From contig SGBB01000002.1 of assembly GCA_004195025.1 (NCBI GenBank), positions 124,001 through 188,000 of the forward strand: 64,000 nt of DNA, given 5' to 3'. The stretch comes from Candidatus Acidulidesulfobacter diazotrophicus (lineage in GTDB: Bacteria > SZUA-79 > Acidulodesulfobacterales > Acidulodesulfobacteraceae). Numbering within the stretch: the stretch's first letter is position 1; each line of letters begins with the position of its first letter. Shown here one piece after another: positions 16,857 to 59,930 of this stretch. The notes below the pieces were generated by a model. The model ran no database searches. It saw only the letters and a program-made list of their open reading frames with translations, and was not told the DNA's origin. The translations under genes and the position numbers were made by a program.

Positions 16857-17421
16857 AGAATCTAAAAATTATGACGATAAGGACAGAACTAATAATCATA
16901 CTGATAAGAATGATAATTCTGAAGGAAAAAGTTTTAAAGTTGTAGATAAAAGATTATTTTCAAAAGACGGCACGTCTAATAAAGATAGCGGGCAGGAAAT
17001 TCAAACTGAAAATGATACAGACAAATCTGAATCTGCGCATAGCATTAATATTAATGAAGAAAAAAATACGGATAGCGAAAAAACAAGAACAGAATTATAT
17101 GATAACGCCAAAAGTGAAATAATCGGCGATAATGAGAAAAGCGAATTTAGCGCAAGCGTTAATGATAATAATATGGATGAATTAAAAGCGGATTTTTCTA
17201 CTTTTGTTTATTCTCTTAATGCTCAAGCTTTGTTCTATCTTGGGAAACTTCCAAATCCTATGACCGGAAAATATGAAAAAGATTTAAAAACTGCAAGATA
17301 TTTGATTGATACGATAGATATGCTTTTTAATAAAACAAAAGGTAATCTTGATGAAAATGAGTCAAAATTAATTACAAATATATTATATGATTTAAAAATG
17401 TTTTACGTTAATGAAAAGTAA
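16849..17421 (+). CDS. DUF1844-domain protein
   Basis: The N-terminal 100 residues are Asp/Asn/Lys/Glu-rich and look disordered. The C-terminal 75 residues match the DUF1844 pattern: FSTFVYSLNAQALFYLGKLPNP, then DLKTARYLIDTIDMLFNKTKGNLDENE and a final helix with LYDLKMFYV. Molecular function unknown. I place the start at ATG 16849 because GGAGGAG at 16833-16839 is correctly spaced before it; a TTG at 16831 is the alternative. Its position between clpA (8-nt overlap) and clpB suggests a link to protein quality control, but this is inference from context. Confidence 0.82.
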   Translation: MFEESKNYDDKDRTNNHTDKNDNSEGKSFKVVDKRLFSKDGTSNKDSGQEIQTENDTDKSESAHSININEEKNTDSEKTRTELYDNAKSEIIGDNEKSEFSASVNDNNMDELKADFSTFVYSLNAQALFYLGKLPNPMTGKYEKDLKTARYLIDTIDMLFNKTKGNLDENESKLITNILYDLKMFYVNEK

Positions 17422-17435
17422 GAGGAGTTTTTCAA

Positions 17436-22149: not shown

Positions 22150-24204
22150 ATGCAAAACAAATATATAATTATCGGTACCGCAGGTCATATAGACCATGGT
22201 AAGACTTCGCTTATAAAAGCGCTGACTGGCAAGGATACAGATAGGCTTATTGAAGAAAAAAAAAGAGGTATAAGCATAGTTTTAGGTTATGCGGATATCA
22301 TTTTGCCGTCAGGCATTCATGCCGGAATAGTTGATGTTCCCGGTCATGCTAAGTTTATAAAAACAATGGTCTCAGGCTCAACAGGAATGGATATAGTGAT
22401 ATTGCTTATTGCCGCCGATGACGGAATTATGGCGCAAACAATAGAACATTTTAATATTTTAAAAATATTGGGCGTCAATATCGTTATTCCTGTTCTTACA
22501 AAAATAGATACGGTAGATAATAATACTATTATTCAAAGAGAAAAAGAAATTATTGATTTTTATAACAATGAAGGATTTAATTTTAAGGACAATGATTTTA
22601 TAATTAAGGTTTCTTCAAAAACACGCGAAGGAATTAATGATTTAATTCAAAAATTAGATTATTATTCTTCTAATTTATTAAATTTAACAGATTTTAATAC
22701 AAATTTAAATATAAATAAAGAAAATATAAATAAAGAAAATATAAATAAAGATATTAATAAATTAGATTTAGCTTTATTTGCCGATGTAAATTTATTTATA
22801 AAAAAAAATTCTTTTACAAAACCGTTTTTACCGATAGACAGGATATTTACCATAAAAGGAATAGGCACAATTATTACGGGAACATTAAAATACGGTAAAT
22901 TTTCCGTTAACGATGAAATTGAAATAATGCCTGAAAAATTAATATCTAAGATTAAAAGCATTGAATCTCATAATGAAGTTCAAATTACTGTATCAAGTTC
23001 AACTAGAACTGCTTTGAATATTTCAGGCGTTGATAAAAAAGCTATAAATATGGGAGACGCAGTTTCTTTAAAAAACAGTTTAACGGTATCAGATAAAATT
23101 ATTGCAAAATTTTATTATTTGGAATCAAATAAAAAAGAATTAAAGAACTTATCAAGCTTTATTTTTATGACGGGAAGCTTAAATTTGTCCTCAAAAATTA
23201 TTATCCCATCCGGGGATAATAATAAAAAAATAATACCCGGTTCTTGGGCTTATATAGTAATTAAATTAGACAGAAAAATTTCTACCGTTTCAAAAGAAAG
23301 ATTTATTATTAGAGACAATAGTATTGCCGGAACATTAGGCGGTGGTATTATAATAGATCCGTTTATGGATTATAAATACGGCAGCTATCAAGAAAAATAT
23401 TTTGAACAAATCCTGTCGGATAATGATTTAGACGTTGTTAACGGTTTTATTGGATTATCAGGAGATTCGGCTGATATGGATAATATTTACAAAAAATTAT
23501 ATTTTTCCTATGAGGATTTTTTAAATAATATTCATAAATTAAAAGAAAAAGAGCTTATTATTACCGATTTGAAGAATAAATTTGCGGTTTTAAAAGAAAA
23601 GTATATTGATTTAAAAAAATCATTGAATGAGAATGTAAAATTATTAACAGAAAAAAAATCTTTACAGAGCGGGATTTCAAAAAAAGAATTATATCATATA
23701 TATGAAAACAGTATAGATATTTCAATATTTGATATTGCTTTAAATGAATTAATTAAAGAAAATTTGATTATTGCCGAAGACGGTAATATTTTTATAGCAG
23801 GGAGGGGGAAAAATGCAGAAAATGAATTATCGGAAGAATATAATAGACTGATAGCTAAAATTGAAAATATTATTAAATCTTCAGGTAACAGCGTTCCTTC
23901 TCCTGACGAAATAGAAAAAAAATTAGATATAAATAAAAAGCTGTTTAATTTTCTTATTAGCATTATGGTTAAGTCTAATAAATTAGTTAAAATAAAATTT
24001 GATTTATATTATTTAAAAGATCAAATTGATTTGATTCAAAGAGGATTGGACGATTTTTTTAAAATAAACGATAAACTTGAGCCTAAAGATATTAAAGATA
24101 TTGCAGGAGTGTCTCGGAAATATGCTATACCTTTGTTAGAATATTTTGACGGCATAGGATTTACCGTTAAAAAAGATAATTATAGAATAAAATCCCGCAA
24201 TTAA
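22150..24204 (+). CDS. selB: Selenocysteine-specific translation elongation factor SelB
   Basis: GTPase that delivers Sec-tRNA(Sec) to UGA codons followed by a SECIS hairpin. G1 GHIDHGKT at 12-19, switch-II DVPGH at 62-66 and LTKID as G4; then EF-Tu-like domain II (ITGTLKYGKFSVNDEIEIMP) and a long C-terminal winged-helix region (about 430-684) that binds SECIS RNA. 684 aa. A small repeated insert (NINKENINKENINKDIN, about 182-198) lies between G domain and domain II. SelB implies that the genome makes selenoproteins; selA, selC and selD are not in the window, and no in-frame UGA selenoprotein was recognised here. Confidence 0.93.
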   Translation: MQNKYIIIGTAGHIDHGKTSLIKALTGKDTDRLIEEKKRGISIVLGYADIILPSGIHAGIVDVPGHAKFIKTMVSGSTGMDIVILLIAADDGIMAQTIEHFNILKILGVNIVIPVLTKIDTVDNNTIIQREKEIIDFYNNEGFNFKDNDFIIKVSSKTREGINDLIQKLDYYSSNLLNLTDFNTNLNINKENINKENINKDINKLDLALFADVNLFIKKNSFTKPFLPIDRIFTIKGIGTIITGTLKYGKFSVNDEIEIMPEKLISKIKSIESHNEVQITVSSSTRTALNISGVDKKAINMGDAVSLKNSLTVSDKIIAKFYYLESNKKELKNLSSFIFMTGSLNLSSKIIIPSGDNNKKIIPGSWAYIVIKLDRKISTVSKERFIIRDNSIAGTLGGGIIIDPFMDYKYGSYQEKYFEQILSDNDLDVVNGFIGLSGDSADMDNIYKKLYFSYEDFLNNIHKLKEKELIITDLKNKFAVLKEKYIDLKKSLNENVKLLTEKKSLQSGISKKELYHIYENSIDISIFDIALNELIKENLIIAEDGNIFIAGRGKNAENELSEEYNRLIAKIENIIKSSGNSVPSPDEIEKKLDINKKLFNFLISIMVKSNKLVKIKFDLYYLKDQIDLIQRGLDDFFKINDKLEPKDIKDIAGVSRKYAIPLLEYFDGIGFTVKKDNYRIKSRN

Positions 24205-24440: not shown

Positions 24441-25886
24441 ATGTCTTATAAAGACCTGCACGATTTTGTCAATTTTCTTGATAAAAACAATGATTTAAAA
24501 AGAATTAGCATACCTGTTGACAGAATTTTAGAAATTCCCGAGATAGCCGACAGAATTGTTAAACAGGAAGGACCTGCATTATTATTTGAAAATGTTAAAG
24601 GATTTAAATTTCCAGTATTAATTAATATGTTTGGCTCTCATAAAAGAATTTTGCAGGCTTTTGAAGTTGAAAGTCTTGACGATGTCGGAAAGCGCGTCTC
24701 TGAAATTATTGATCCTGAAATACCCACAAATTTTTTTGAAAAAATCAAATCTTTATCAAAATTAAAAAAATTGGCGGATTATATGCCAAAAATAGTCAAA
24801 ACAGGTAAATGCAAGGAAGTTATAATAAAAAATCCCCCGCTGCTTGATATTCTGCCTGTTCTCAAAACATGGCCCGAAGACGGCGGTCCTTTTATCACAT
24901 TGCCGTTAGTTTTTACTAAAGATCCCGAATCTAATGCCGTAAATGTCGGTATGTACAGAATGCAGGTTTATGACGACGCTACTTGCGGAATGCACTGGCA
25001 TATTCATAAAGACGGTGCGAGACATTTTAGAAAATATAAAGAGCTTGGCAAAAAGATTCCTGTTTCCGTTGTTTTAGGATCTGATCCTGCCGTTATTTAT
25101 TCTGCTACGGCTCCGCTTCCTCCCGATATTGAAGAAATGATGTTTGCCGGTTTTTTGAGAGAAGAAGCGGTAGAATTAGTAAAATGCGAAACTAATGATT
25201 TACATGTTCCTGCTAATGCGGAATTTGTTATTGAAGGATATATTGATCCTGAAGAAGATTTAAAAATTGAAGGTCCTTTCGGCGATCATACGGGTTATTA
25301 TTCATTAGAAGATTATTATCCTGTTTTTCATGTAACATTAATATCTCATAGAAAAGATGCTATTTATCCTGCTACTATCGTCGGAAAACCTCCTATGGAA
25401 GATTGCTATATAGGCAAGGCAACCGAACGATTCTTTTTGCCGGCGATCAAAAAAATATTTCCTGAAATTGTTGATATTAATTTGCCTTTTGAAGGTATTT
25501 TTCATGACCTCGCTTTTATAAGCATTAAAAAAAGCTATCCCGGACATGCAAAAAAAATAATGCACGGCATCTGGGGATTAGGTCTTATGATGTTCACAAA
25601 AATTATAGTTGTTCTTGACGAAGATGTTGATGTGCAAAATAAAGGTGAAGTAATATGGAGGCTTTGCAATAATATAGACCCTAAACGCGATGTTTCTTTT
25701 GTTGAAGGACCTATTGACGTTTTAGAACATGCCTCGGATATTCCTAATTACGGTTCTAAAATGGGAATAGACGCAACAAAAAAATGGGCATCCGAAGGAT
25801 ATAAGAGGGAATGGCCTAATGATATAGTTATGTCTGCGGAAATTAAAAAATTAGTCGACGATAAATGGAAAGAATATGGATTTTAA
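24441..25886 (+). CDS. ubiD: UbiD-family prenylated-FMN decarboxylase
   Basis: Decarboxylase using prenylated FMN made by the UbiX protein. Recognised by the N-terminal LHDFVNFLDKNNDLKRI, the TWPEDGGPFITLPLV and CGMHWHIHKDGARH regions, the catalytic-loop stretch EGPFGDHTGYYSLEDYYPVFHV and DWxxR-type downstream blocks. 481 aa is normal. In a genome with mqnE and neighbouring ubiA/ubiX homologues, the likely substrate is a naphthoate intermediate of the futalosine menaquinone pathway rather than an octaprenyl-hydroxybenzoate; this is inference from context. ubiA follows after 39 bp. Confidence 0.9.
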   Translation: MSYKDLHDFVNFLDKNNDLKRISIPVDRILEIPEIADRIVKQEGPALLFENVKGFKFPVLINMFGSHKRILQAFEVESLDDVGKRVSEIIDPEIPTNFFEKIKSLSKLKKLADYMPKIVKTGKCKEVIIKNPPLLDILPVLKTWPEDGGPFITLPLVFTKDPESNAVNVGMYRMQVYDDATCGMHWHIHKDGARHFRKYKELGKKIPVSVVLGSDPAVIYSATAPLPPDIEEMMFAGFLREEAVELVKCETNDLHVPANAEFVIEGYIDPEEDLKIEGPFGDHTGYYSLEDYYPVFHVTLISHRKDAIYPATIVGKPPMEDCYIGKATERFFLPAIKKIFPEIVDINLPFEGIFHDLAFISIKKSYPGHAKKIMHGIWGLGLMMFTKIIVVLDEDVDVQNKGEVIWRLCNNIDPKRDVSFVEGPIDVLEHASDIPNYGSKMGIDATKKWASEGYKREWPNDIVMSAEIKKLVDDKWKEYGF

Positions 25887-25925
25887 TAATATTATTATTT
25901 ATTATATTTTATTCTTATACTTTTT

Positions 25926-26816
25926 ATGATATCAAAAAAAATTAAAAGTACATTAGAACTCGTAAAATTTTCCCATACAATATTTGTTCTTCCGTTTGCT
26001 TTAAGCGCATTTTTACTTGCTTTTTATATAAAATTTCCGTTAGAAATAAATACAGGTTTTTTTTATGATAAAATATTGTGGGTTGTGATCGCTATGGCAT
26101 CTGCAAGGAGCGGAGCAATGGCTTTTAACCGCATTATAGATGCTAAAATAGACGCTCTTAACGATAGAACTAAGTCAAGGACAATCCCAAAAGGCGAACT
26201 TTCGGCAGCATACAGTATAATTTTTGGATTATTGTCTTATGCAGTACTAATATTTTCTGCGTATGAGCTTAATTTCTTATGTTTAGTTTTATCGCCCTTT
26301 GTAATTCTTTTTATTACTTTTTATTCATTTACTAAGAGGTTTACTTTTTTTTCGCATTTTGTTCTTGGAGCCAGCATGGCGTTTGGTCCTATAGGCGCAT
26401 GGATTGCGGTAACGGGCAGCATTGATTATAAAATTATAATACTTGGAACTGCGGTATTACTGTGGGGAGCAGGTTTTGATATATTATACGCTACAATGGA
26501 TTATGATTTTGATGTTTCTCACGGTCTTTTTTCCGTGCCGGCTAAATTTGGAATTAAAAATTCGGTTATAATTGCAAGAGCTCTTCATTTAATAACACTT
26601 TGTCTGCTTGTTTATATTTATTTTATATTTAATTTAAATTATTTATATATTATAGGATTATTTATTATTGCAGGATTTTTTATTTATGAACATTATTTAA
26701 TTTATAAAAGTTTAAAAAATATAGATATGGCATTTTTTAATATGAACGGGTATATTTCATTAAGCTTTTTTTTGTTTATAACCATGAGCGTTTTTAGTAA
26801 AATATTTTTTCAATGA
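25926..26816 (+). CDS. ubiA: UbiA-family prenyltransferase
   Basis: Integral-membrane enzyme that attaches a polyprenyl chain to an aromatic acid. About eight or nine transmembrane helices; the first Asp-rich motif is NRIIDAKIDALNDRT (N-x-x-x-D-x-x-x-D type) near 80-94 and the second is YATMDYDFDVSHGLFSVP near 188-205. 296 aa is typical. Placed between the ubiD and ubiX homologues and upstream of mqnE, so it is the probable prenyltransferase of menaquinone synthesis. An interspersed repeat fills the space after it. Confidence 0.9.
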   Translation: MISKKIKSTLELVKFSHTIFVLPFALSAFLLAFYIKFPLEINTGFFYDKILWVVIAMASARSGAMAFNRIIDAKIDALNDRTKSRTIPKGELSAAYSIIFGLLSYAVLIFSAYELNFLCLVLSPFVILFITFYSFTKRFTFFSHFVLGASMAFGPIGAWIAVTGSIDYKIIILGTAVLLWGAGFDILYATMDYDFDVSHGLFSVPAKFGIKNSVIIARALHLITLCLLVYIYFIFNLNYLYIIGLFIIAGFFIYEHYLIYKSLKNIDMAFFNMNGYISLSFFLFITMSVFSKIFFQ

Positions 26817-26858
26817 ATTAAAAATTATTGAGTAAATATAAATTATTAAATATATTCT

Positions 26859-27088
26859 CAAAATTGCCGATAGAAAAGTTTATTCTGGATGACCGCTTCG
26901 CTCTCGTGCCTAACGACACTCGTGAACAGAAACGGCATGCGTTTCTATCTTCGGAACTTTCCCGCCTACGCGGGAATGACGTTGAGGAATTTTAAAAGTT
27001 CACCCATTGGGTGTCATTCCTGCGAAAGCAGGAATCCAGCGTTATTAATGCATTGCGGTATATTTAACAATCTCTATCGGCAATTTTG
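26859..27088. repeat. MITE-like interspersed repeat, copy c
   Basis: 230 bp bounded by CAAAATTGCCGATAGA and its complement TCTATCGGCAATTTTG. Contains the conserved core (TGACCGCTTCGCTCTCG...GAACAGAAACGGCATGCG...TATCTTCGGAACTTT) and two dRS3-like palindromes (near 26960-26977 and 27015-27034). Occupies most of the 444-bp ubiA-ubiX gap. Confidence 0.75.
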
Positions 27089-27260
27089 GGATATTGTATT
27101 GTATTGTATTAAATTTATAATTATTGATACTTAATTTATAAGCAGTATAAGTAATTTAGAATTCACAAGTAATTAATGCAGCTATATTTGATAAAATTGA
27201 TAAGTGTGAATGTGTAAAATGCAAACAATCAATAATAATTTTAAAATTTAAATTTTAAAT

Positions 27261-27920
27261 ATGAAAAAAAAATCGTATATAGTAGCAATTACAGGAGCGT
27301 CAGGCTCGATATACGGTTTTAGACTTTTAGAAGAATTAATAAATCATAATTATTATGTTTATCTGATTATTTCAAAGCCTGCTTTTAAAGTTATAAAAGA
27401 TGAATTAAATATGTTTAGCTGTATAAATTTAAATAATAATGAAAATGGCGCAACGAATACAAACTATATATATAATAATATATATAGCGAGATTAAATCA
27501 AAATTTAATATAGACGATAAAGATAATTATGAATATTTAGACGAAATGTTTATTGAAGCAAAAATATCCAGCGGTTCTGCTTCGGGTATTAGAGGAATGG
27601 CTGTTATTCCTTGTTCTATGGGCAGTTTATCAAGAATTGCAAACGGGAGCTCAGGAAATTTAATTGAAAGAGCATCGGATGTTATGCTTAAAGAGCGTAA
27701 AAAGTTGATTGTCTCCCCTAGAGAAACGCCTTTAAACGATATACATCTAAAAAATATGCTTTCTTTAAGCAGATCTGGAGCTATAATATTACCTCCGATA
27801 CCTGCTTTTTATAATAAACCTAAAAGTATTGACGATATGGTTAATTTTATTATAGGAAAAATAATGGATTCATTTGGAATTGAAAATAATATATATAAAA
27901 GATGGGAGACTAATAACTAA
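27261..27920 (+). CDS. ubiX: UbiX-family flavin prenyltransferase
   Basis: Makes prenylated FMN, the cofactor of UbiD. Rossmann-like flavoprotein: N-terminal AITGASGSIYGFRLLEEL FMN loop, SGSASGIRGMAVIPCSMGSLSRIANGSSGNLIERASDVMLKE (split here for brevity: SGSxS, then IPCSMGS, then NLIERASD), and the RETPLNDIHLKNM motif near 155-167. 219 aa, slightly longer than the usual 190-200 because of an Asn-rich insert at about 53-90. Physically linked to ubiD/ubiA and mqnE. Confidence 0.92.
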   Translation: MKKKSYIVAITGASGSIYGFRLLEELINHNYYVYLIISKPAFKVIKDELNMFSCINLNNNENGATNTNYIYNNIYSEIKSKFNIDDKDNYEYLDEMFIEAKISSGSASGIRGMAVIPCSMGSLSRIANGSSGNLIERASDVMLKERKKLIVSPRETPLNDIHLKNMLSLSRSGAIILPPIPAFYNKPKSIDDMVNFIIGKIMDSFGIENNIYKRWETNN

Positions 27921-28056
27921 CTAATATAATATTATTATAAATAAATATAAAACTAACTAATAAAAATAAATAGCTAATAAAATAAAATAAATCAAATAAC
28001 TAATATATTTATAAAATAATAAATAAAATATTAATAAAAAAAATAGTAAAATAATA

Positions 28057-29130
28057 ATGACAAACTTTGAAATTATTAAAAATAAAGTTTATAATAATAT
28101 AAGGCTTAGTGATGAAGACGGTTTATTTTTATTTTCCTCGAATGATATTTTGACGACAGGGGAACTCGCAGGTTATAAAAATTTTAAAATAAATGGCGAT
28201 AATGTATATTATGTTGTAAATATTCATATTAATTATACTAATATTTGTGTTAATCAATGCGCTTTTTGCGCTTTTTACAGAAAAGAGAATCAGAAAGACG
28301 CATATGCTTTTAATATAGATGAAATAATTAATTTTATAAGATCTTATTCTAAGGAAAATAATTTTAAAGAAATACACATCGTCGGGGGTCTTCATCCGTC
28401 TTTGCCTTATGAGTATTATCTTGAAATGGTTTCAAGAATAAAAGAAAATTTTCCTTATGCCAATATTCAAGCCTTTACCGCAGTTGAAATAGATTATCTA
28501 TCTAAAATTTCAGGATTATCTATTGAAAATGTTCTGACTGATTTGAAAAATAATGGATTAGGAAGTCTTCCAGGAGGAGGAGCCGAAATCTTTAATAATA
28601 ATTTAAGAAAAAAATTATGTCCGCAGAAAATAAATGCGGAAAAATGGATAGAAATTCATAAAACAGCCCATAATCTTAGTATATGGTCAAATGCATCAAT
28701 GCTTTACGGAGTGAAAGAATCTTATATGGATAGAATTAACCATTTGAAAATCTTAAGAGACGCCCAGGATATTACAGGAGGATTTCAATCTTTCATTCCA
28801 TTCGCTTTCCAGCCTAAAAATACCGCAATAAAAAATTCTAATAAAACTTCAGGTTATGATGATTTAAAAGTTATAGCCGTATCTCGACTTTATTTAGATA
28901 ATTTTAAACATATAAAAACATTTTTTGTTAATTTAGGTATAAATTTAGCTCAGGTTTCTTTGTCTTTTGGGGCAGACGATATTGACGGAACTCTCATAAA
29001 AGAAAATATATCTCATAGCGCAGGAGCCGATACGGAGGATGGCTTGAGCGTCAAAAGGCTAAGGAAAATTATTGAAGAAACCGGAAAAATTCCTATAGAA
29101 CGGGATACTTTTTATAATATTATAGTTTGA
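28057..29130 (+). CDS. mqnE: Aminofutalosine synthase MqnE (radical SAM)
   Basis: Radical-SAM enzyme that builds aminofutalosine from 3-[(1-carboxyvinyl)oxy]benzoate and SAM in the futalosine pathway. Cluster cysteines Cys64, Cys68 and Cys71 (CVNQCAFC). GSLPGGGAEIF, the AHNLSIWSNASMLYG strand, LRDAQDITGGFQSFIPFAFQP and FGADDIDGTLIKE are diagnostic of the MqnE/MqnC family; the GLGSLPGGGAE form and the long FIPFAFQP block favour MqnE over MqnC. 357 aa. Last gene of the ubiD-ubiA-ubiX-mqnE set. mqnA, B, C and D are not in the window. Confidence 0.88.
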   Translation: MTNFEIIKNKVYNNIRLSDEDGLFLFSSNDILTTGELAGYKNFKINGDNVYYVVNIHINYTNICVNQCAFCAFYRKENQKDAYAFNIDEIINFIRSYSKENNFKEIHIVGGLHPSLPYEYYLEMVSRIKENFPYANIQAFTAVEIDYLSKISGLSIENVLTDLKNNGLGSLPGGGAEIFNNNLRKKLCPQKINAEKWIEIHKTAHNLSIWSNASMLYGVKESYMDRINHLKILRDAQDITGGFQSFIPFAFQPKNTAIKNSNKTSGYDDLKVIAVSRLYLDNFKHIKTFFVNLGINLAQVSLSFGADDIDGTLIKENISHSAGADTEDGLSVKRLRKIIEETGKIPIERDTFYNIIV

Positions 29131-51398: not shown

Positions 51399-52766
51399 AT
51401 GGAAAATAGAAACACCTTAAACAAGGAACAAATAATTAAAATACTGCAAAAATTTTTAGATGCCGAAATTGCCGGACGAGACCTTTATCTTCAGCAATCA
51501 AAAAATATTAACGACCCGTCGCTTATTCAAACATTAAAATCATTTGCATCTACGGAAAGCGGTCATATTATCAATATAAGAGATAAAATAACCGAGCTTG
51601 GAGGGAAGCCTCACTCCGTCAGCGAAGTTAGCGACATTCAAAAAGGACTGAGCGATGCATCTCATCAAGTTTCAGCTCCTTTAGATATGCTTAGAATAGA
51701 TTTAAAAATTGAAGAAACTGCGATTAACGATTATACCGCTGCTACTGAAATCATTGACGATGAAGGTGTTAAAACATTAATAGAAAATAATCTTGCCGAA
51801 GAAATTCACCATTCTTTATATTTATCTAAAAAAATAAATGAGATATTAGAAAAAACAAGAAATAAAATTGGCGCTATTAGCAGGATTGAAAAGCCCGGCG
51901 GGAAGGAACCTTCCGAAATATTTAAGGCATCTGTTGAAGTTGGATTATTAAGGCTAAACAGAAGCTGGCTTGAAATGTTTATGTCGGGTTTAATCGCAGG
52001 TATGAATGTCACTTTCGGCATTATTGCTTCTTCTTACGTTGCCGGAGCAACGGAACCTTTAGTCGGAGGACCGACTTCTAAGATATTTGGGGCTTTATTC
52101 TTTCCGATAGGCTTTATGTTTTTGCTAATAGGAAAAAGCGAACTTTTTACAGAAAATTTTTTACTTCCGGTTACTACCGTTTTAGCAAAAAAAACTAAAA
52201 TACGGAGGTTATTTAAATTATGGGGATTAACTTTAGCCGGAAATATGGGAGGTATTTTTCTATTTGCCTTGATTATTGCAAGTTCTTTAGGATTACTATT
52301 GCCTGTATTTGTTATTAATCATATTCATACCGTAGCGCATAGTTATATGTCAAAGTCTCCTTATATTATGGTGCTTAGCGGTGTTTTTGCCGGGTGGCTT
52401 ATTACCCTTATGACCTGGCTTTTAATTGCTTCAAGCGGAACATTGGCTCGAATAATTATAATATGGGCAGTTGGTTTTATGATTTATCTCGGTTCTTTCA
52501 GCCACATAGTTGTCGCCTCTTCAGAAATATTAATATCTATAAATTCAAGTTCGGGAATGTCATATATTCCATGGTTGACAAAATTTGTTCCGTTGACTAT
52601 TATCGGAAATATGATAGGCGGTTTAGTCTTTGTTACAGTATTCCAATATTTGCAGATATTGCATGCAGGCGGAAAGACGGAGATGAGTTTATATTCGTCA
52701 AGCGAACTTGATATGCTTAGCAAAGCAGTTGACCGAAGAATTGAAGATGCTGAAGATACATTATAA
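51399..52766 (+). CDS. Ferritin-like diiron domain fused to a formate/nitrite-transporter (FNT) channel
   Basis: Residues 1-150 form a four-helix ferritin-like/rubrerythrin domain with a full ligand set in sequence: Glu23, Glu53-x-x-His56, Glu105 or Glu106, Glu134/135 and His137/138. From about 185 to 430 follows a six-helix FNT module (MFMSGLIAGMNVTFGI, LIGKSELFTENFLLPV, NMGGIFLFALI, MSYIPWLTKFVPLTIIGNMIGGLVFVTVF), YfdC-like. The FNT is a pentameric channel for small monoanions. The fusion is uncommon; the diiron domain may gate or detoxify at the membrane (inference). 455 aa. Confidence 0.87.
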   Translation: MENRNTLNKEQIIKILQKFLDAEIAGRDLYLQQSKNINDPSLIQTLKSFASTESGHIINIRDKITELGGKPHSVSEVSDIQKGLSDASHQVSAPLDMLRIDLKIEETAINDYTAATEIIDDEGVKTLIENNLAEEIHHSLYLSKKINEILEKTRNKIGAISRIEKPGGKEPSEIFKASVEVGLLRLNRSWLEMFMSGLIAGMNVTFGIIASSYVAGATEPLVGGPTSKIFGALFFPIGFMFLLIGKSELFTENFLLPVTTVLAKKTKIRRLFKLWGLTLAGNMGGIFLFALIIASSLGLLLPVFVINHIHTVAHSYMSKSPYIMVLSGVFAGWLITLMTWLLIASSGTLARIIIIWAVGFMIYLGSFSHIVVASSEILISINSSSGMSYIPWLTKFVPLTIIGNMIGGLVFVTVFQYLQILHAGGKTEMSLYSSSELDMLSKAVDRRIEDAEDTL

Positions 52767-52985: not shown

Positions 52986-53663
52986 ATGGAATATGATGAA
53001 AACGGAGTTAGTATTGTCTCTAATGAATTCAAAAAAGAAATTTTTGAAGAAGCAAAAAAAGATTTTAGATATGAAGAGTATGTAAAAGGATGTCTTAATT
53101 GCGGAGTGTGTACGGGAGGTTGCCCTCCTCACAGGTTTTTTGATTTTTCTCCGAGAATGGTTCTTCAAAATTGCAAATCAAATGACCCTGAACTTGTATG
53201 GGGAATGATGGACGAGTATGTCTGGGCTTGTTTTCAGTGTTTTACATGCGCTATGATTTGTCCTTTTTTAAATAATCCTGGCGGCGTTATTGCAATATTA
53301 AGAGAAATTTCTGTAAGGAGAGGGTTCGAATCTGCAAAAAAAGTTTTAAAACCATACTCCCGCGTTCTTTTGAAATTAACCGCTTATGGAAATCAATTAT
53401 CTCCGGATATGATTCAGCCTGATTTTTTTCCTGATTGGGGACCGCATATAGGATATGCCTCTCAGGATTTGCCGTTAAAAAGAAAAGCTATTCCGATGCC
53501 CACGCTTCAAGTTACAAATCTTGCATGGGATGTCGCTCCAGAAGCAATGAAAGAACTTTATACTATTTTTGAAGAAGCGGGCGTGTTTAAAATTATAGAA
53601 GTGGTAGACCCTGCATTATATGAAATAATTCAGGATATTGTTGATGATGTTAGAAGCGAATAA
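52986..53663 (+). CDS. shdrC1: sHdr complex iron-sulfur subunit C1
   Basis: HdrC-like ferredoxin subunit of the sulfur-oxidising heterodisulfide reductase-like complex. Two 4Fe-4S motifs: CLNCGVCTGGCP (Cys36, 39, 42, 46) and CFQCFTCAMICP (Cys82, 85, 88, 92). 225 aa is the size expected for this subunit. Strong GGAGG before the ATG. First gene of the locus C1-B1-A-H-C2-B2, whose order matches the sHdr clusters known from acidophilic and other sulfur oxidisers (family knowledge). Cytoplasmic; likely passes electrons from sulfane oxidation. Confidence 0.88.
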   Translation: MEYDENGVSIVSNEFKKEIFEEAKKDFRYEEYVKGCLNCGVCTGGCPPHRFFDFSPRMVLQNCKSNDPELVWGMMDEYVWACFQCFTCAMICPFLNNPGGVIAILREISVRRGFESAKKVLKPYSRVLLKLTAYGNQLSPDMIQPDFFPDWGPHIGYASQDLPLKRKAIPMPTLQVTNLAWDVAPEAMKELYTIFEEAGVFKIIEVVDPALYEIIQDIVDDVRSE

Positions 53664-53799
53664 GTGTGAAAAAGATTAATTTTTTAGATACAATATTTAT
53701 TATATAAACATTGTAAACTTAAACTGACATATAATAATAGTATTACCGTATTATTTTATTGAAATACTATTTTACTTTAATTAATCGGGAGAACATAAT

Positions 53800-54996
53800 A
53801 TGGCTATTGAAATCAGAAACAGATTGGGACTTGCCGATGTTAAATCAGATTTTAGACATATTGCAGGCAGAAAAATTGAAAATATTCATGAGGAGCTTTT
53901 AGAACTGGAAGCAAAAGGAGAAATAAAAGTAATTCACATTACTGATGCAAACAAACCGATTGAAGCCGAAACCTTATTCGGACGGAAAAAGAAGATACCT
54001 ACAACTAAATTGTGGCATCATAAATCTTGCGGTCAATGCGGAAATATTCCCGGTTATCCGGTATCTCTTTTATGGTTTATGAATAAATTTGGCACCGAAT
54101 ATATAGATGAAAGAAATCAAACATCCTGTACGGCATGGAACTACCACGGGTCTGCTACTTCTAATCCTGTCGGTCTTGCCGCCGTTGCCGTCAGAAATTT
54201 TCACAGGGCTTACGAGTTAGGGTTATTTCCGTTGATACATTGCGCAACTTCTTTTGGCGATTATAAAGAAATGCGCAACCTTCTTGTTGAAAATAAAGAA
54301 TTAAGGGATGAAGTAAGAAGAATAATGCATAAAATAGGCAGAGAGCTTGTACTTCCTGAAGAAATTGTTCATTATAGCGAATGGGTTCACGTTATGAGAT
54401 TTGAAATTGCAAAATTAAAAAAATATGATTTAAGTAATATCATTACGACGGTTCATCCTGCTTGCCACTGCTATAAGATGATTCCTGAAGATTGTATTTA
54501 CGACAAAAACATTTACGCAGGAAAAAGGACTGCCGTTTCGACGGGCGTTGCCCTTGCTCTAGGCGCTCAAGTTGCCGATTACTCTACATGGTATGATTGC
54601 TGCGGGTTTGGATTCAGACATATTTTAACGGAGAGAGAAGCTTCCAGATCGTTTGTAATGGACAGAAAAATAAGACCTATGGTACGAGAAGCTAATTCCG
54701 ATGTTTGCATAACGCAAGATACGGGATGCACCACAACTCTTGATAAAAATCAATGGATAGGAAAAGCTATGGGTTATACCGAACAGGTTCCCGTTATGGC
54801 AGATGTTATGTTTGCTGCGCTTGCCTGCGGAGCGGACGTCTATAAAATAGTGCAGCTTCAATGGCATACGACAGATTGGAGACCGTTATGCGAAAAAATG
54901 GGAATTGACTGGAAAAAGTCAGAAGAAGAATATAAAGCTTATTTAGAACAGTTGAGATCGGGCGGAAAACCGGAAAATTTATATGAATACGCATAA
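53800..54996 (+). CDS. shdrB1: sHdr complex cysteine-rich subunit B1
   Basis: HdrB-like subunit with atypical CCG-type domains. Cysteine positions: Cys77, Cys80, Cys110 and Cys148 in the N-terminal half; Cys222, Cys224, Cys267-Cys268 (YDCCGFGF), Cys303 and Cys310 in the C-terminal half, a layout that can bind a noncubane Fe-S cluster. 398 aa. Shares gene order with other sHdr loci. A CCG signature with a modified last motif (C-x6-C rather than CxxC) is what I see; cluster type is inferred. Confidence 0.85.
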   Translation: MAIEIRNRLGLADVKSDFRHIAGRKIENIHEELLELEAKGEIKVIHITDANKPIEAETLFGRKKKIPTTKLWHHKSCGQCGNIPGYPVSLLWFMNKFGTEYIDERNQTSCTAWNYHGSATSNPVGLAAVAVRNFHRAYELGLFPLIHCATSFGDYKEMRNLLVENKELRDEVRRIMHKIGRELVLPEEIVHYSEWVHVMRFEIAKLKKYDLSNIITTVHPACHCYKMIPEDCIYDKNIYAGKRTAVSTGVALALGAQVADYSTWYDCCGFGFRHILTEREASRSFVMDRKIRPMVREANSDVCITQDTGCTTTLDKNQWIGKAMGYTEQVPVMADVMFAALACGADVYKIVQLQWHTTDWRPLCEKMGIDWKKSEEEYKAYLEQLRSGGKPENLYEYA

Positions 54997-55205
54997 TTAA
55001 TTACGATTTAATAATTAAATTTAACAACATATAAATTAATGCTACCATAATAGGCTAATACTATTATAATTTGTATGATAAATTAAGAAATATAGTAATT
55101 AAGCAATACAAAATAATTAAACAATATATATAATAGTTTATTATTAATTATAACTATTTATTTACATTTTAAATATAATTTATATTTAAAAAAAGGAGGC
55201 ATTAT

Positions 55206-56249
55206 ATGGCTGAAAATATTCTTGTTATCGGCGGCGGTCCTGCAGGGCTTCATGCCGCTATTGAACTTGCTGAGTTAGGCGTTAATGTCAGCTTAGTAGA
55301 AAGAGATACGTTCTTAGGAGGAAATCCAAAAAAATTTAAATATAAGTATTTATTCCCTGACCTTCAGCCTGCCGACGATGTTATAGGCGAATTAATCAGA
55401 CGTACGGAATCCAACGGCAATATAAAAAAATACTTTTCGGCAAATATAGAAAGCTTTAAAGAAGAAGGTAAAAAATTTAATGCCGTGATAAAATCAGATT
55501 CGGGTTCCGAAACTAAAACATTTGATTCTATAATAGTCGCAACGGGTTTTGAGCATTTTGACCCTGCGAAAGATTCTAAATATTCTTATCAATTATTTGA
55601 TGATGTTATAGACATTAAAGACTTAGAAAGAATGATGGGTGAAGGAAATTTTACCAGACCTTCAAACGGAAAAACTCCTAAGAATGTGGCTTTCATTTTA
55701 TGTGTCGGTTCAAGAGACAGGCATGTAGGCAATCAATATTGTTCAAGAGTATGCTGTACCGTGTCGGTTAAACAAGCAATAGAACTAAGGGAACATTTTC
55801 CTGAAACAGAGGTTTATATATTTTATATGGATATAAGAACCTACGGTTTTTATGAAGATTTATACTGGAAAGCTATGGAAGAGCACGATGTTCAGATAGT
55901 AAAAGGCAGAGTTGCCGAAATTACCTCAGGACCTGATAATACGGTAATATGTAAAGGCGAAGATACTCTATTAAGAGGACCTTTTGAAATACCTTTTGAT
56001 ATGGTAGTTTTAGCTTCAGGAATGGAAGGCGGACCTCAATCACCTGAAATGGCAAATAAATTAGGCATAGAACTTGACGAGCATGGATTTTTAAAATACG
56101 CGAATGTAACTCTTTCGCCGTGCAAATCAAATAAAGACGGAATTTTTCTTGCGGGAGCATGCACTGGACCTAAGGCAATTGCAGATGCAATAATTGAAGG
56201 CGGAGCTGCCGCTATGAATGCTTATATATATGCTAAGAAAAATTCTTAA
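55206..56249 (+). CDS. shdrA: sHdr complex flavoprotein subunit A
   Basis: FAD-binding HdrA-like subunit: GGGPAG at 9-14, VERDTFLGGN, VATGFEHFDP, a Cys motif C166-VGSRD...C179SRVCC184, and the terminal FLAGACTGPKAIADAI helix. 347 aa: it lacks the N- and C-terminal ferredoxin domains of methanogen HdrA, which is the mark of the sHdr branch. Strong GGAGG before the ATG. Preceded by a 209-bp AT-rich gap, so internal promoters are possible. Core electron-accepting subunit (inference from the family). Confidence 0.88.
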   Translation: MAENILVIGGGPAGLHAAIELAELGVNVSLVERDTFLGGNPKKFKYKYLFPDLQPADDVIGELIRRTESNGNIKKYFSANIESFKEEGKKFNAVIKSDSGSETKTFDSIIVATGFEHFDPAKDSKYSYQLFDDVIDIKDLERMMGEGNFTRPSNGKTPKNVAFILCVGSRDRHVGNQYCSRVCCTVSVKQAIELREHFPETEVYIFYMDIRTYGFYEDLYWKAMEEHDVQIVKGRVAEITSGPDNTVICKGEDTLLRGPFEIPFDMVVLASGMEGGPQSPEMANKLGIELDEHGFLKYANVTLSPCKSNKDGIFLAGACTGPKAIADAIIEGGAAAMNAYIYAKKNS

Positions 56250-56465
56250 GTTTATAATTTATTAAGTTTATATATGATTATATTAAAAAAATATTTTTAT
56301 TGTTTAGATTTTGTTTAAATTATATTAAATTATATTAAATTATATTAAATTAACCGCAGGTTTAAACAAGGTTTAAAGGTATATAGCTAATAGCGGCGAT
56401 TTAAAAAATTTTCATTATTATTTGTTATTTCATTTTTTAGATTTTATAAATTTTATTAAAACTCT

Positions 56466-57194
56466 ATGCCGTATATATTAAAGAATAATAAAATAGATTC
56501 AAGATATGAAATTAAATTTTTTGAAATAATCAGAGAAAATTTAAATAATGAAAAATTAGATGAGCTTTATACGCTTTTAGACAAAAAGTCTAATATAGTA
56601 AAAGATTTTATTAATACCTTAAACTTAAATAATCCGGATTTTGAATATATTTTATCTTTAGTATTTTCAATACGAAGACATAAGAAAAAAATATTAGATA
56701 CGATAAGCGATAAAAATTTAATTTCGGCATTTAATGTTTTTAAGGGGAAAAAATCTCAAGAAATAAAAGTGGGGAAATTTCTTGAGATTTTAGACTACGA
56801 TGATGTGATAGTCAAGAGAGATCTTGCGTTTGAAATTTTGCATTTTCTTGAACCTGAAAATAATATTTTATGGACGACATGGATTTATAAACAGGATAGC
56901 GGAACAGGTTCACTGCCGTATATGGCTGATTTTTTAAAAAGGACATGGGACGGAAATGCATATATAATGCCGTTTACATTTAGGGAAATGCGGGATGAAA
57001 TAGATTATCTGTATGAGCTTGCATATAAAAACGGATTTAACATTAAACCTCCGTTCGGAACTGATATTTTGCTGGCTTATATGTATGCAGACTATGTTTT
57101 TAAAATGGTTTATGCCGAATCTAAATCTTTATCGGTAGGTGTTCCAGACGGGTATACTTTGATGAAAAAATTATTAGGAATTGAAAAAATATAA
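56466..57194 (+). CDS. shdrH: sHdr-associated conserved protein H
   Basis: 242-residue protein without recognised cofactor motifs, predicted mostly alpha-helical and soluble. Recognised by position between shdrA and shdrC2 and by size, as in sHdr loci elsewhere. Features: an acidic/Asn N-terminal helix region, central FEILHFLEPENNILWTTWIY and C-terminal GTDILLAYMYADYVFKMVYAESKSLSVGVPDG. No cysteine-rich motif, so a structural or assembly role is likelier than redox (inference). No ribosome-binding site evident. Confidence 0.72.
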   Translation: MPYILKNNKIDSRYEIKFFEIIRENLNNEKLDELYTLLDKKSNIVKDFINTLNLNNPDFEYILSLVFSIRRHKKKILDTISDKNLISAFNVFKGKKSQEIKVGKFLEILDYDDVIVKRDLAFEILHFLEPENNILWTTWIYKQDSGTGSLPYMADFLKRTWDGNAYIMPFTFREMRDEIDYLYELAYKNGFNIKPPFGTDILLAYMYADYVFKMVYAESKSLSVGVPDGYTLMKKLLGIEKI

Positions 57195-57253
57195 TGCAAA
57201 TAATGCAAATGTTTTATTAAACCTAAATCCAGATTCAGAATATAATATTCTGG

Positions 57254-57273
57254 ATTCCCGCCTGCGCGGGAAT
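57254..57273. repeat. dRS3-like palindrome (MITE remnant)
   Basis: ATTCCCGCCTGCGCGGGAAT, the palindrome used in all copies of the repeat family, here joined to a 65-bp tandem repeat downstream. Confidence 0.8.
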
Positions 57274-57422
57274 GACTTAGTATAAATTTAATAAAACTCA
57301 AAATTGTAGTTGTATTATCTATTGACAATGAGCGGAATGACTAAGTATAAATTTAATAAAACTCAAAATTGTAGTTGTATTATCTATTGACAATGAGCGG
57401 AATGACTTAGTGTAAATTTAAT
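57271..57422. repeat. 65-bp tandem repeat (2.3 copies)
   Basis: Units begin at 57271, 57336 and 57401, each starting AATGACTTAG or AATGACTAAG. Each contains ACTCAAAATTGTAG and TATTGACAATGAG, which look like degraded terminal repeats of the MITE-like family. Lies in the 360-bp gap between shdrH and shdrC2. Confidence 0.85.
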
Positions 57423-57554
57423 ATATTAATCAATTTAATTTTTATCAGATTTATAATTTATAAGTTGCGGTATTAAGTAAGTTTGCCGTATAAATTCAAT
57501 ATATTAATCAATTTAATTTAATTAATTTAATTTTGCAATCAGATTGGAGGCATT

Positions 57555-58337
57555 ATGGCTGAAGAGCATAATAAAAATAGCGTAAGACCTGTTGCTGAAA
57601 AAGGCGAACATATAATAGCAAGGCATCTGATAGATGACGATGCAATTAAAGAAGAAAAAAATCTTGTTATTGACGGCGTGGATGTTTCTGGCAGATGGAA
57701 TACATTTATTGAAACAAGAGTCGATTCTGAATATGACAGAAGTTTTTTTGATGAAATTCAAAAAACAGTTGTCGGTTCGAGAATTAACAGATGCTGGCAA
57801 TGCGGAATGTGTACGGCAAGCTGCACTGTAACTCCGTTATATAGAAGATTTAACCCTCGCTCCTTTATATATATGATGCAGCTCGGCAATTTAAAGCAAT
57901 TAAAAAAATATGTAGATGTTGCATGGCGCTGCGTAGGATGCTATAAATGTTCACAAAGGTGCCCCAAACAGGTTAATCCGGCAGAAATGATGGAAGCGCT
58001 CGCTCTTTTAATAAAAAAATATTTTCCCGAAGAGATTAAATCTAAACATCAATTAACAATTGATGAAGAAGTTAAAAAAATATATGAAGGTATGATATTA
58101 GGACATGGCAGATTAGATCTTGCAAATCTTCATACTTCTGCTATGAGAAAAATGGGTAAAACTTCTGAACTATTGAGCGATAAAGATGAAAGAGGCGCTA
58201 TTTTTAAAATGATGAAAGACGGTAGGGCATTGTCCGTTTTAAGGCTCGGAAAACCCCACAAATGGCATAAATCAAAAGACGCTATTGATAAATATCTACA
58301 AAATACGGGAACTCTTGAGCAGGAAAGCCAAGTATAA
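57555..58337 (+). CDS. shdrC2: sHdr complex iron-sulfur subunit C2
   Basis: Second HdrC-like subunit: 4Fe-4S motifs CWQCGMCTASC (Cys80, 83, 86, 90) and CVGCYKCSQRC (Cys126, 129, 132, 136), with an extended N-terminal part (1-75) not found in C1. 260 aa. A GGAGG (in TTGGAGGCATT) precedes the ATG. The tandem-repeat-laden gap before it and a 41-bp tandem repeat after it break the tight spacing usual in this operon. Confidence 0.88.
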   Translation: MAEEHNKNSVRPVAEKGEHIIARHLIDDDAIKEEKNLVIDGVDVSGRWNTFIETRVDSEYDRSFFDEIQKTVVGSRINRCWQCGMCTASCTVTPLYRRFNPRSFIYMMQLGNLKQLKKYVDVAWRCVGCYKCSQRCPKQVNPAEMMEALALLIKKYFPEEIKSKHQLTIDEEVKKIYEGMILGHGRLDLANLHTSAMRKMGKTSELLSDKDERGAIFKMMKDGRALSVLRLGKPHKWHKSKDAIDKYLQNTGTLEQESQV

Positions 58338-58420
58338 TAATGCATAACAACAAGTATTAAAATTTTATAGAATTATAATTATTTTATAAATATATCAACA
58401 TAAATAAATAATTAATATAA

Positions 58421-58502
58421 CGATATAACAATATCAATAAATAATTAATGTAACGATAAAACGATATAACAATATCAATAAATAATTAATGTAACGATAA
58501 AA
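58421..58502. repeat. 41-bp tandem repeat
   Basis: Two copies (58421-58461, 58462-58502) beginning CGATATAACAATATC, preceded by a partial unit. In the 292-bp shdrC2-shdrB2 gap. Confidence 0.85.
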
Positions 58503-58629
58503 CAGTAAGACGGTATGTAATTTTGTATTTGTATTAGATTATTATTGGATTATTATGGAGTTAGATTAAAAATAATATAATATAATATAATAATAAAATT
58601 AACAATAAAACAATGAGGTGATATATAAT

Positions 58630-59553
58630 ATGGAAACTTTAAAAGAAAATCAGGCTGCGTATTATCCCGGATGCGCGTTATTAACTATTGACAGAGCTTA
58701 TAACAATAGTTCTAAATTGGTTTCTAAAAAAATGGGCATAGAATTGGTGGAAATACCGGATTATAATTGCTGCGGTATCGGAGAAATGAAATCTAAAGGC
58801 GCTGTGTCTTTATATTTGCCGCTTAGAAATATGACGATTGCTAAATCTAAACTCGGGAGCAAAGATCTTGTTATGGCATGCTCCGTCTGCTACCATGAAT
58901 TTACAAGGTCTATTACAAAAGTAAAGGAAAATAAAAAACTTCTTGATGAGGTTAATTTAATTTTGAAAGATGCAGACGAGGAAGAATATGCTCCAGAAGG
59001 TGAAGCGCGTCATATTCTGGAGTTTTTATATAATGAAAAAGGTCCCGACGAAGTTAAAAAAAACACGGTTAAACCATTAAAGGGGATAAAGGTTGCTCCG
59101 TATTACGGCTGTTTATATACAAGACCTTCAATGTATACTTTTGCTGATAAAAAACCAAACTTGGATAATTCCGAAAAACCGCATTTTATGCATGATTTTC
59201 TTGAAAGCATGGGTGCCGAAGTTGTTAGTTATGGAAACGAAGTTCAATGCTGCGGAGGCAGAAATGTAGTTCAGGACGAAGAAACTTCATTTACTTTATG
59301 TTCTCAAACACTTTCAAAAGCAAAGAAAGCCGGAGCCGATTTTCTGGTAGTTATTTGTCCAAAATGCGCAGGAGCATTAGACGTAAATCAGCCGAAAATT
59401 GTTGAAAAATATGGAGAAGATTCAGAACTTCCCGTTGTATATCTTACCCAGCTGATGGCATTGGCTTTCGGTTTTTCCGAAAAAGACGCTCAATTTAGCG
59501 ATATGATATCAAATCCATTAAAAGTATTAAAAGAAAAAGGAGGTTTTATTTAA
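58630..59553 (+). CDS. shdrB2: sHdr complex cysteine-rich subunit B2
   Basis: HdrB-like subunit with two canonical CCG domains. First: YPGC..., CCGIGEM, then CSVCYHEF. Second: YYGC, QCCGGRN, then CPKCAG. Each fits C-x(n)-CC-x(n)-CxxC that binds a noncubane 4Fe-4S cluster; this is the likely active site for sulfur-substrate handling (family knowledge). Start at ATG 58630 rather than GTG 58618, because GAGGTG lies 9-10 nt upstream; 308 aa. A rubrerythrin gene follows 2 nt later. Confidence 0.88.
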   Translation: METLKENQAAYYPGCALLTIDRAYNNSSKLVSKKMGIELVEIPDYNCCGIGEMKSKGAVSLYLPLRNMTIAKSKLGSKDLVMACSVCYHEFTRSITKVKENKKLLDEVNLILKDADEEEYAPEGEARHILEFLYNEKGPDEVKKNTVKPLKGIKVAPYYGCLYTRPSMYTFADKKPNLDNSEKPHFMHDFLESMGAEVVSYGNEVQCCGGRNVVQDEETSFTLCSQTLSKAKKAGADFLVVICPKCAGALDVNQPKIVEKYGEDSELPVVYLTQLMALAFGFSEKDAQFSDMISNPLKVLKEKGGFI

Positions 59554-59555
59554 TT

Positions 59556-59930
59556 ATGACAAAGACTGAAAAAAACTTGGCGGAAGCTTTTGCAGGCGAA
59601 TCGCAGGCGAACAGAAGATATACTGCATGGGCAAGGCAGGCGGATGCAGAAGGCTATCCTGAAGCAGCAGAACTTTTCAGGTCTGTTGCCGAAGGCGAAA
59701 CAGCTCATGCTTTAGGTCATTTTAATCATATGAAAGGCGTAAAAACTACGGCAGAAAATTTAAAAAAAGCTGCGGAAGGAGAAAGGTACGAAGTAAACGA
59801 AATGTATCCGCGTATGGCAAAAGAGGCGCGTGAAGAAGGGTTAGAAGAAATTGCAAAATGGTTTGAAATGGTAGGAAAGGCAGAGAATTCCCATATGAAA
59901 GCTTTTGAAAAAATTTTATCTGAATTATAA
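59556..59930 (+). CDS. Rubrerythrin-type diiron protein (no rubredoxin domain)
   Basis: Ferritin-like oxidative-stress protein of the rubrerythrin family. Ligand pattern: GESQANRRYTAWARQ (Glu of first helix), GETAHALGHF (Glu-x-x-His), EGERYEVNEMYPRMA and KAENSHMKAF (Glu-x-x-His). The C-terminal rubredoxin is missing, 124 aa. Start only 2 nt past shdrB2, so co-expressed with the sHdr complex; it might protect the oxygen-sensitive clusters (inference). Confidence 0.9.
   Translation: MTKTEKNLAEAFAGESQANRRYTAWARQADAEGYPEAAELFRSVAEGETAHALGHFNHMKGVKTTAENLKKAAEGERYEVNEMYPRMAKEAREEGLEEIAKWFEMVGKAENSHMKAFEKILSEL

Follow-up and report, generated by a model that had tools for sequence, protein, structure and literature searches.

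Can a set of shdr genes with no lbpA beside it be a sulfur oxidation system, and if so, from where are its lipoate partners supplied? This question is raised by a cluster in a 64,000-nucleotide stretch of DNA (the window) from an uncultured, acid-mine bacterium of the SZUA-79/Ca. Acidulodesulfobacterales phylum. In a 2018 survey lbpA was linked to the hdr cluster in all cases (PMC6067878).

All six shdr frames are intact, in the order C1-B1-A-H-C2-B2 (window positions 52986-59553), and the genes, their order and their sizes are those given in a preliminary description of the window:

52986..53663, + strand: shdrC1, 225 aa, two 4Fe-4S motifs
53800..54996, + strand: shdrB1, 398 aa, CCG protein with Asp307 replacing the first Cys of CXXC
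55206..56249, + strand: shdrA, 347 aa, FAD protein that lacks ferredoxin domains
56466..57194, + strand: shdrH, 242 aa, all-helical
57555..58337, + strand: shdrC2, 260 aa, two 4Fe-4S motifs
58618..59553, + strand: shdrB2, 311 aa, two CCG motifs

The shdrB2 product has 311 aa when read from the GTG start, and 307 aa from an ATG four codons downstream. The Fe-S and CCG motifs claimed earlier were recovered by domain search, which identified C1 and C2 as 4Fe-4S dicluster proteins and gave one CCG domain match in B1 and two in B2. Eight Cys of C1 are invariant in an alignment of 70 homologues, and ten Cys of B2 are retained. HdrA, as previously noted, carries no ferredoxin domain, and its best PDB match is 6tjr (E 2.3e-78), the sHdrA of Hyphomicrobium denitrificans. 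Sequence searches of Pfam, NCBIfam and PDB returned no match for HdrH. Its homologues were aligned from 32 loci (18–97% identity), and its structure model (pLDDT 88.8) had no PDB match by Foldseek at E<=0.001.

A type I sHdr is defined by shdrC1B1AHC2B2 in one syntenic cluster (PMC11582611), and the window cluster has this arrangement. The order is far beyond chance, because it recurs in 18 other SZUA-79 loci, and also among archaea, Bacillota and Proteobacteria. The replacement of Cys by Asp in the second CCG motif of B1 was found in all 19 SZUA-79 proteins and in all 60 type I proteins from elsewhere (79/79 including the window); as a type I mark it is an empirical criterion from the present comparison, and the Asp is also found in type II sHdr. 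The group III or type II systems (C1B1AH-B3-EtfBA; L235, L236) resemble the window cluster in having C1, A, H and an Asp-bearing B1, and lbpA lies elsewhere in the cluster. The window, however, does not have the type II arrangement (shdrC1B1AHB3 with etfAB): C2 and B2 are separate, and no etfAB lies in or beside the cluster.

Type I systems also have LbpA and dedicated lipoylation genes in the genome, and both were found here. Among five GcvH-like proteins of the same genome, two score as true GcvH and three are LbpA-like; LipS1, LipS2 and an sLpl ligase are also encoded. The preliminary description, correct that no lbpA adjoins the window cluster, had proposed a search for lbpA and a lipoate ligase elsewhere and held that a genome without a lipoate partner would speak against its reading; absence of LbpA from the genome is rejected by our search. 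The genes lbpA1-lbpA2-lipS1-slpl-lipS2 form a cassette on another contig (C10), lbpA3 is solitary, and the lipoylation Lys of LbpA is conserved. The lbpA-lipS-lpl cassette occurs across the phylum, including species with window-type sHdr only, and LipS2 was found in 26 of 30 phylum genomes.

No lbpA adjoins shdr in any of the 17 SZUA-79 loci with downstream sequence; outside this phylum, 39 of 41 loci have lbpA after B2. The shdr and lbpA genes are unlinked in the SZUA-79 phylum, and the partners are not absent. The lbpA-hdr linkage, not seen here, is an arrangement feature that lies outside the operational definition (PMC11582611). Relative to the type I sHdr-LbpA systems of H. denitrificans, Acidithiobacillus and Sulfobacillus (PMC6067878, PMC11582611), the order C1-B1-A-H-C2-B2, the Fe-S, CCG and Asp motifs, and the presence of LbpA, LipS1, LipS2 and sLpl in the genome are the same; the differences are that lbpA and the lipoylation genes lie on other contigs or far off, not beside B2, and that the window genes are separated by AT-rich spacers of 136–360 nt. 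In Sulfolobaceae (group II), hdr, lbpA and maturation genes are likewise distributed across several operons (PMC6067878), but within one wider region, whereas here the cassette is on a different contig. Since the linkage can be absent, screens based on it can misjudge the lipoate partner.

The remaining sulfur genes fit a sulfur path that we read from gene content. SoxB scored over the cut-off, SoxY, SoxZ and a YeeE/TsuA-like transporter are present, the SoxA match fell below the cut-off, and SoxX was not identified in this genome. Seven TusA over the cut-off, DsrEFH and AprA were also detected, as was a reductive-type dsrA-B-D-L operon in which DsrD and DsrL were recognised from their size, position and similarity; both dsrAB and tusA, suggested earlier as a check, are in the genome. 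Given the observed gene content, intactness, motifs and phylogeny, and the conservation of both unlinked loci, we consider it highly probable that sHdrC1B1AHC2B2 is a complete type I system oxidising sulfur, with LbpA and the lipoylation enzymes supplied in trans; sulfur oxidation is likely to be the function of the cluster. The direction and substrates of the reaction, its electron acceptor, and which LbpA pairs with which Hdr are putative. Thiosulfate (through SoxB and SoxYZ) or polysulfide would provide sulfane sulfur that enters via the YeeE/TsuA-like transporter, and TusA and DsrE-type carriers would relay it to lipoylated LbpA. The sHdr complex would then oxidise LbpA-bound sulfur to sulfite, electrons leaving through the C1/C2 Fe-S clusters and the HdrA flavin, and sulfite may be oxidised via AprAB or exported. 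The cassette and the solitary lbpA3 would serve sHdr in trans.

Four other explanations were weighed. The window genes could encode a methanogen-type HdrABC with an unrelated role, e.g. ferredoxin- or hydrogen-linked bifurcation, and the NCBIfam HdrA, HdrB and HdrC models do match, but all far below cut-off (HdrA2 261/1100 bits, HdrB 114/450, HdrC 79/350). Classical HdrABC (L234; PDB 5odc, 7bkb) shares common ancestry of the A, B and C subunits with the window cluster; it differs in the extra ferredoxin domains of its HdrA, in an HdrB that keeps CXXC, and in lacking H, a second B/C pair and LbpA. In our trees B1 and A fall inside the sHdr clade, apart from classical HdrB/HdrA, and the window cluster is nested within sequences of established sulfur oxidisers, e.g. 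Sulfobacillus and Acidithiobacillus; the preliminary description had named grouping with methanogen-type Hdr as evidence against it, and the opposite was found. The methanogen-type reading is thus rejected by phylogeny, domain content and the NCBIfam cut-offs, and we give it practically no weight. Motifs, subunit order and phylogeny mark the window cluster as a genuine type I sHdr and not a methanogen-type Hdr. A binning or assembly artefact is conceivable in a draft genome of 47 contigs. The contig that carries the cluster, however, is 217 kb long, the genome is 98.3% complete and 0% contaminated, and an artefact is refuted because the same two loci recur in independent genomes (B1 is 99% identical in L013, and the same-genus genome G001 is in 5 contigs); its probability is negligible.

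The two readings that accept the cluster as sHdr bear on its use. If it were a relic or lipoate-independent, with the LbpA proteins belonging to a second Hdr set of the same genome, both the 0/17 count of adjoining lbpA and the position of the lbpA pair, directly after that second set, would be expected. On the other side, genomes without the second set keep the cassette intact, the window cluster has the wider distribution (H in 27/30 phylum genomes vs. second-set B1 in 13/30), all window subunits are intact, and the solitary LbpA3 groups with Sulfobacillus LbpA encoded right after B2 (tree support 87); this reading is very unlikely. Slightly less improbable, though still unlikely, is that the complex runs reductively, e.g. 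as an LbpA-dependent persulfide/sulfite reductase partner of Dsr in an anaerobe. The gene dsrD is a marker of reduction, and it accompanies dsrAB and dsrL in this genome; net sulfur reduction may therefore be possible under some conditions. Sulfate reduction has also been proposed for the order (PMC6776010). Reductive use is weakened, however, because sHdrH, LbpA and aprA are retained in five same-genus genomes (90–99% complete) where no dsrA was matched; the sHdr-specific Asp in B1, the position among sulfur oxidisers and the Sox genes also argue against it. Of the function first proposed for this locus, sulfur oxidation or a reverse reductive use in a deltaproteobacterium-like anaerobe, the former thus stands as likely for a type I sHdr and the latter is weakened; the lineage was first described as deltaproteobacterial.

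The cluster would bring a complete lipoate-dependent sulfur oxidation system to a phylum whose members are best known for sulfate reduction in acid habitats. It may also explain the high transcription of hdrB2, hdrC2 and gcvH reported for the phylum: in metatranscriptomes of the order, hdrB2, hdrC2, gcvH, sirA-like and sqr were among the top transcripts, with sHdr not named (PMC6776010). Same-genus genomes with and without dsrA make the coexistence of sHdr and reductive Dsr in one cell testable.

The second Hdr set is the most novel element of the genome; it was absent from the preliminary description because it lies outside the window. This hdrC1B1AC2B2 set (x-type) is on contig C10, directly upstream of lbpA1-lbpA2-lipS1-slpl-lipS2, and has no H gene between A and C2. 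Its B1 keeps the ancestral Cys (CTGC in 13/13 x-type B1 proteins), so that it lacks both marks of type I and type II sHdr, H and the Asp in B1, and in the tree it branches outside both. A recent duplication of the window cluster is disfavoured: joint grouping costs 18 log units (p-AU 0.039), which is moderate evidence, since long branches are in play. Two partly overlapping searches covered several hundred genomes of other families, a sample and not proof of absence; the strong matches examined were type II sHdr or classical Hdr, and none was a close relative. We tentatively suggest that the H-less set may be a third, early-branching lipoate-linked Hdr kind, with type I and type II together as its sister group. 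It would perhaps use the same LbpA carriers for another reaction, possibly a reductive one, giving an oxidising and a reducing LbpA-Hdr pair in one cell. This paralogue, with its canonical B1 motif, makes the roles of H and of the B1 Asp testable.

The repeats earlier reported between the genes were confirmed in the AT-rich spacers (also bounded more narrowly, at 57269-57423 and 58390-58504), as was a rubrerythrin 2 nt past B2. A ferritin-FNT gene lies upstream of the cluster:

51399..52766, + strand: channel of the formate/nitrite transporter family (FNT) with a fused ferritin-like domain (Pfam FNT 5.5e-47, ferritin 2e-9)
57269..57463, + strand: tandem repeat in the H-C2 spacer, a 65-nt unit present three times (98% and 62% identity)
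58390..58507, + strand: AT-rich array of tandem 33/41-nt units in the C2-B2 spacer
59556..59930, + strand: rubrerythrin-like ferritin domain, 124 aa (Pfam E 4e-25)

An Rfam search of 50–62 kb gave no matches, the terminator scan returned a count at chance level, and the promoter scan found 52 vs. 38.2 ± 6.1 in AT-rich DNA. Rubrerythrin follows B2 in 5 of 17 SZUA-79 loci, and we reject it as a component of the system; it is a sporadic neighbour. Most SZUA-79 loci have the ferritin-FNT gene ahead of shdrC1, which makes it a conserved upstream neighbour in the phylum.

The six-gene order C1-B1-A-H-C2-B2 given in the preliminary description was confirmed, with all six shdr genes intact on the + strand of the window at 52986-59553. 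The absence of ferredoxin domains from HdrA and the rubrerythrin-like gene 2 nt past shdrB2 were likewise borne out, and B2 measured 311 aa instead of about 308 aa.

shdrC1, + strand, 225 aa, 4Fe-4S dicluster protein
shdrB1, + strand, 398 aa, CCG-domain protein
shdrA, + strand, 347 aa, short FAD protein lacking ferredoxin domains
56466-57194, + strand, shdrH, 242 aa
shdrC2, + strand, 260 aa, 4Fe-4S dicluster protein
shdrB2, + strand, 311 aa, CCG-domain protein
2 nt past shdrB2, + strand, rubrerythrin-like gene, 124 aa

The window proteins scored far under the cut-offs of all NCBIfam HdrA, HdrB and HdrC models. In alignments they retain the Fe-S and CCG cysteines shared without exception by other type I sHdr subunits, and the top PDB match of HdrA was 6tjr (E 2.3e-78), which is sHdrA of Hyphomicrobium denitrificans. 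The window B1 is 99% identical to its counterpart in one MAG and 87% to that of isolate SZUA-79. A methanogen-type origin was weighed by phylogeny of A and B1. In the HdrA tree the window and SZUA-79 sequences grouped with those of Thermoplasmata, Sulfobacillus, Proteobacteria and 6tjr, and methanogen HdrA stood apart; in the B1 tree they were sister to Sulfobacillus (support 93/96). Because of these placements the methanogen-type reading is not upheld. A record titled Klebsiella pneumoniae (MAG) (L085) has an sHdr cluster whose sequences fall among environmental proteobacterial ones, and is probably a mislabelled or mixed MAG.

The window HdrH had no sequence match in Pfam, NCBIfam or PDB. 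Its AlphaFold2 model is all-helical (pLDDT 88.8, pTM 0.88), and matched no PDB structure at E 0.001. Among 32 aligned sequences the invariant residues include D119, H126, W139, G148 and Y207, and E123 is nearly invariant; their spacing would put D119, E123 and H126 on the same side of helix 114-128.

Type I sHdr is already well known; the unlinked arrangement of the window locus is unusual. The lack of lbpA next to the cluster, already pointed out, extends to 0/17 SZUA-79 loci having sequence past B2; in other lineages lbpA follows B2 in 39/41 loci (exceptions L030 and L076). The unlinked arrangement is thus a trait of phylum SZUA-79. A literature search covering open-access papers, with subscription papers and supplements outside it, found no description of sHdr in this phylum.

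The host genome G000 (2.46 Mb, 98.3% complete; the window is G000:C2:124001-188000) was searched for lipoate-binding partners, lipoate ligase-like genes, tusA and dsrAB. Five full-length GcvH-domain proteins were found. Two score as true GcvH, above the curated cut-off; three are LbpA-like, falling under the GcvH equivalog cut-off and retaining the lipoylation lysine. The genome is therefore not devoid of a lipoate-binding partner, and it also encodes LipS1, an sLpl-like ligase and LipS2, in one cassette with the tandem LbpA1 and LbpA2 on contig C10. The solitary LbpA3 lies on the same contig as the window cluster, ~160 kb away.

L009, true GcvH within a gcvT-gcvH-gcvP operon
L011, true GcvH near an LplA-like gene
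G000:C2:13465-13911 (L010:9466-9915), LbpA3, beside a thioredoxin-like gene
L008:3395-14535 (C10), H-less Hdr set and cassette, hdrC1B1AC2B2-lbpA1-lbpA2-lipS1-slpl-lipS2-osmC, with an ArsR-family gene upstream

LbpA3 occurs at >80% identity in 25/30 SZUA-79 genomes, LipS2 in 26/30 and the window-type H in 27/30. In the LbpA tree, built on few columns, LbpA3 pairs with the Sulfobacillus LbpA located right after B2 (support 87), and the cassette LbpAs join the proteobacterial LbpA2 clade and a second Sulfobacillus LbpA (support 95). A simple, tentative reading of these few columns is an ancestral Sulfobacillus-kind cluster whose linkage was later lost.

The H-less set is the second Hdr set of the genome. 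Its B1, of a different kind from the window B1 (x-type), was found in 13/30 SZUA-79 genomes, G000 included, and in the four loci seen in full (G000, G001, G007 and G012) the set reads C1-B1-A-C2-B2 immediately 5′ of lbpA1. The cassette lbpA1-lbpA2-lipS1-slpl-lipS2 is also intact in five genomes without the second set (G011, G016, G027, G028 and G029; an ArsR-family gene is immediately 5′ of it in G028 and G029); its most likely user in these genomes is therefore the window-type sHdr. Proteins of the H-less set are 34-48% identical to those of the window set. Its B1 carries the motif CTGC in 13/13 genomes. At this site every window-type B1, and every other type I or type II B1 examined, reads DTGC; in classical HdrB the motif is CPGC. 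In the B1 tree its branch lies outside type I plus type II (support 95/94). A constraint joining it with the window set was rejected only moderately (p-AU 0.039). Several hundred genomes sampled across other families yielded no close relative. The H-less set may represent a third LbpA-linked kind of Hdr; a reductive role for it is only a guess.

The search for sulfur genes returned seven TusA proteins and a dsr operon ordered dsrN-A-B-D-L-C-M-K-E-F-H, in which dsrA was called by TIGR02064 and the remaining genes by size, order and similarity. The DsrL encoded there has YNK at the position of YRR in others of the same DsrL type; YNK has been reported from Ca. Acidulodesulfobacterium and Ca. Acididesulfobacter alone (PMC7596348). 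The genome accordingly belongs to Ca. Acidulodesulfobacterales (phylum SZUA-79). G000 also encodes SoxB (above cut-off), SoxY, SoxZ, a SoxA-like cytochrome, rhodanese, a TauE-like protein and aprA; TusA and DsrE-like genes flank its YeeE/TsuA-like transporter gene.

L231:5059-13746 (C16), candidate sulfur import/relay locus: TusA, YeeE/TsuA-like, DsrE-like, rhodanese and TauE-like genes
window 24441-29130, futalosine-route menaquinone genes: decarboxylase and MqnE above cut-off, MqnP- and UbiX-like genes

Five same-genus genomes (G001-G005, 90-99% complete) gave no dsrA match, and despite this retain sHdrH, LbpA and aprA; dsrAB is present in G000 and the same-genus G006, which likewise keep aprA and sHdrH. 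Losing dsr while keeping sHdr fits oxidation of sulfane sulfur to sulfite, then to sulfate via Apr. Given the futalosine-route genes, menaquinone is a possible electron acceptor of the pathway. A metatranscriptome of the order listed hdrB2, hdrC2, gcvH, sirA-like and sqr among the top transcripts, assigned to methane and glyoxylate metabolism (PMC6776010); present gene identities suggest that its hdr and gcvH transcripts are candidate sHdr and LbpA.

Further features in and around the cluster:

51399-52766, + strand, fusion of a ferritin-like domain with an FNT channel, a conserved neighbour 5′ of shdrC1
57269-57463 and 58390-58507, tandem repeats within the H-C2 and C2-B2 spacers

The ferritin-FNT fusion lies 5′ of shdrC1 in most SZUA-79 loci, and rubrerythrin follows B2 in only 5/17. 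Since formate, nitrite and hydrosulfide are all possible substrates of FNT channels, the fusion may transport an anion of sulfur or nitrogen. The repeats noticed earlier between the shdr genes are present. Spacers between the shdr genes are 136-360 nt in the window; in relatives several gene pairs are separated by as little as 0-50 nt, and even the nearest relative's locus (L013, B1 99% identical) has H-C2 and C2-B2 spacers of other lengths. The repeats therefore look like recent AT-rich expansions, not conserved elements. Elsewhere the window encodes a SelB-like selenocysteine elongation factor above the NCBIfam cut-off (22150-24204) and, at 14514-20033, a canonical ClpB (865 aa) immediately preceded by a second, divergent ClpA/ClpB-like ATPase (780 aa).
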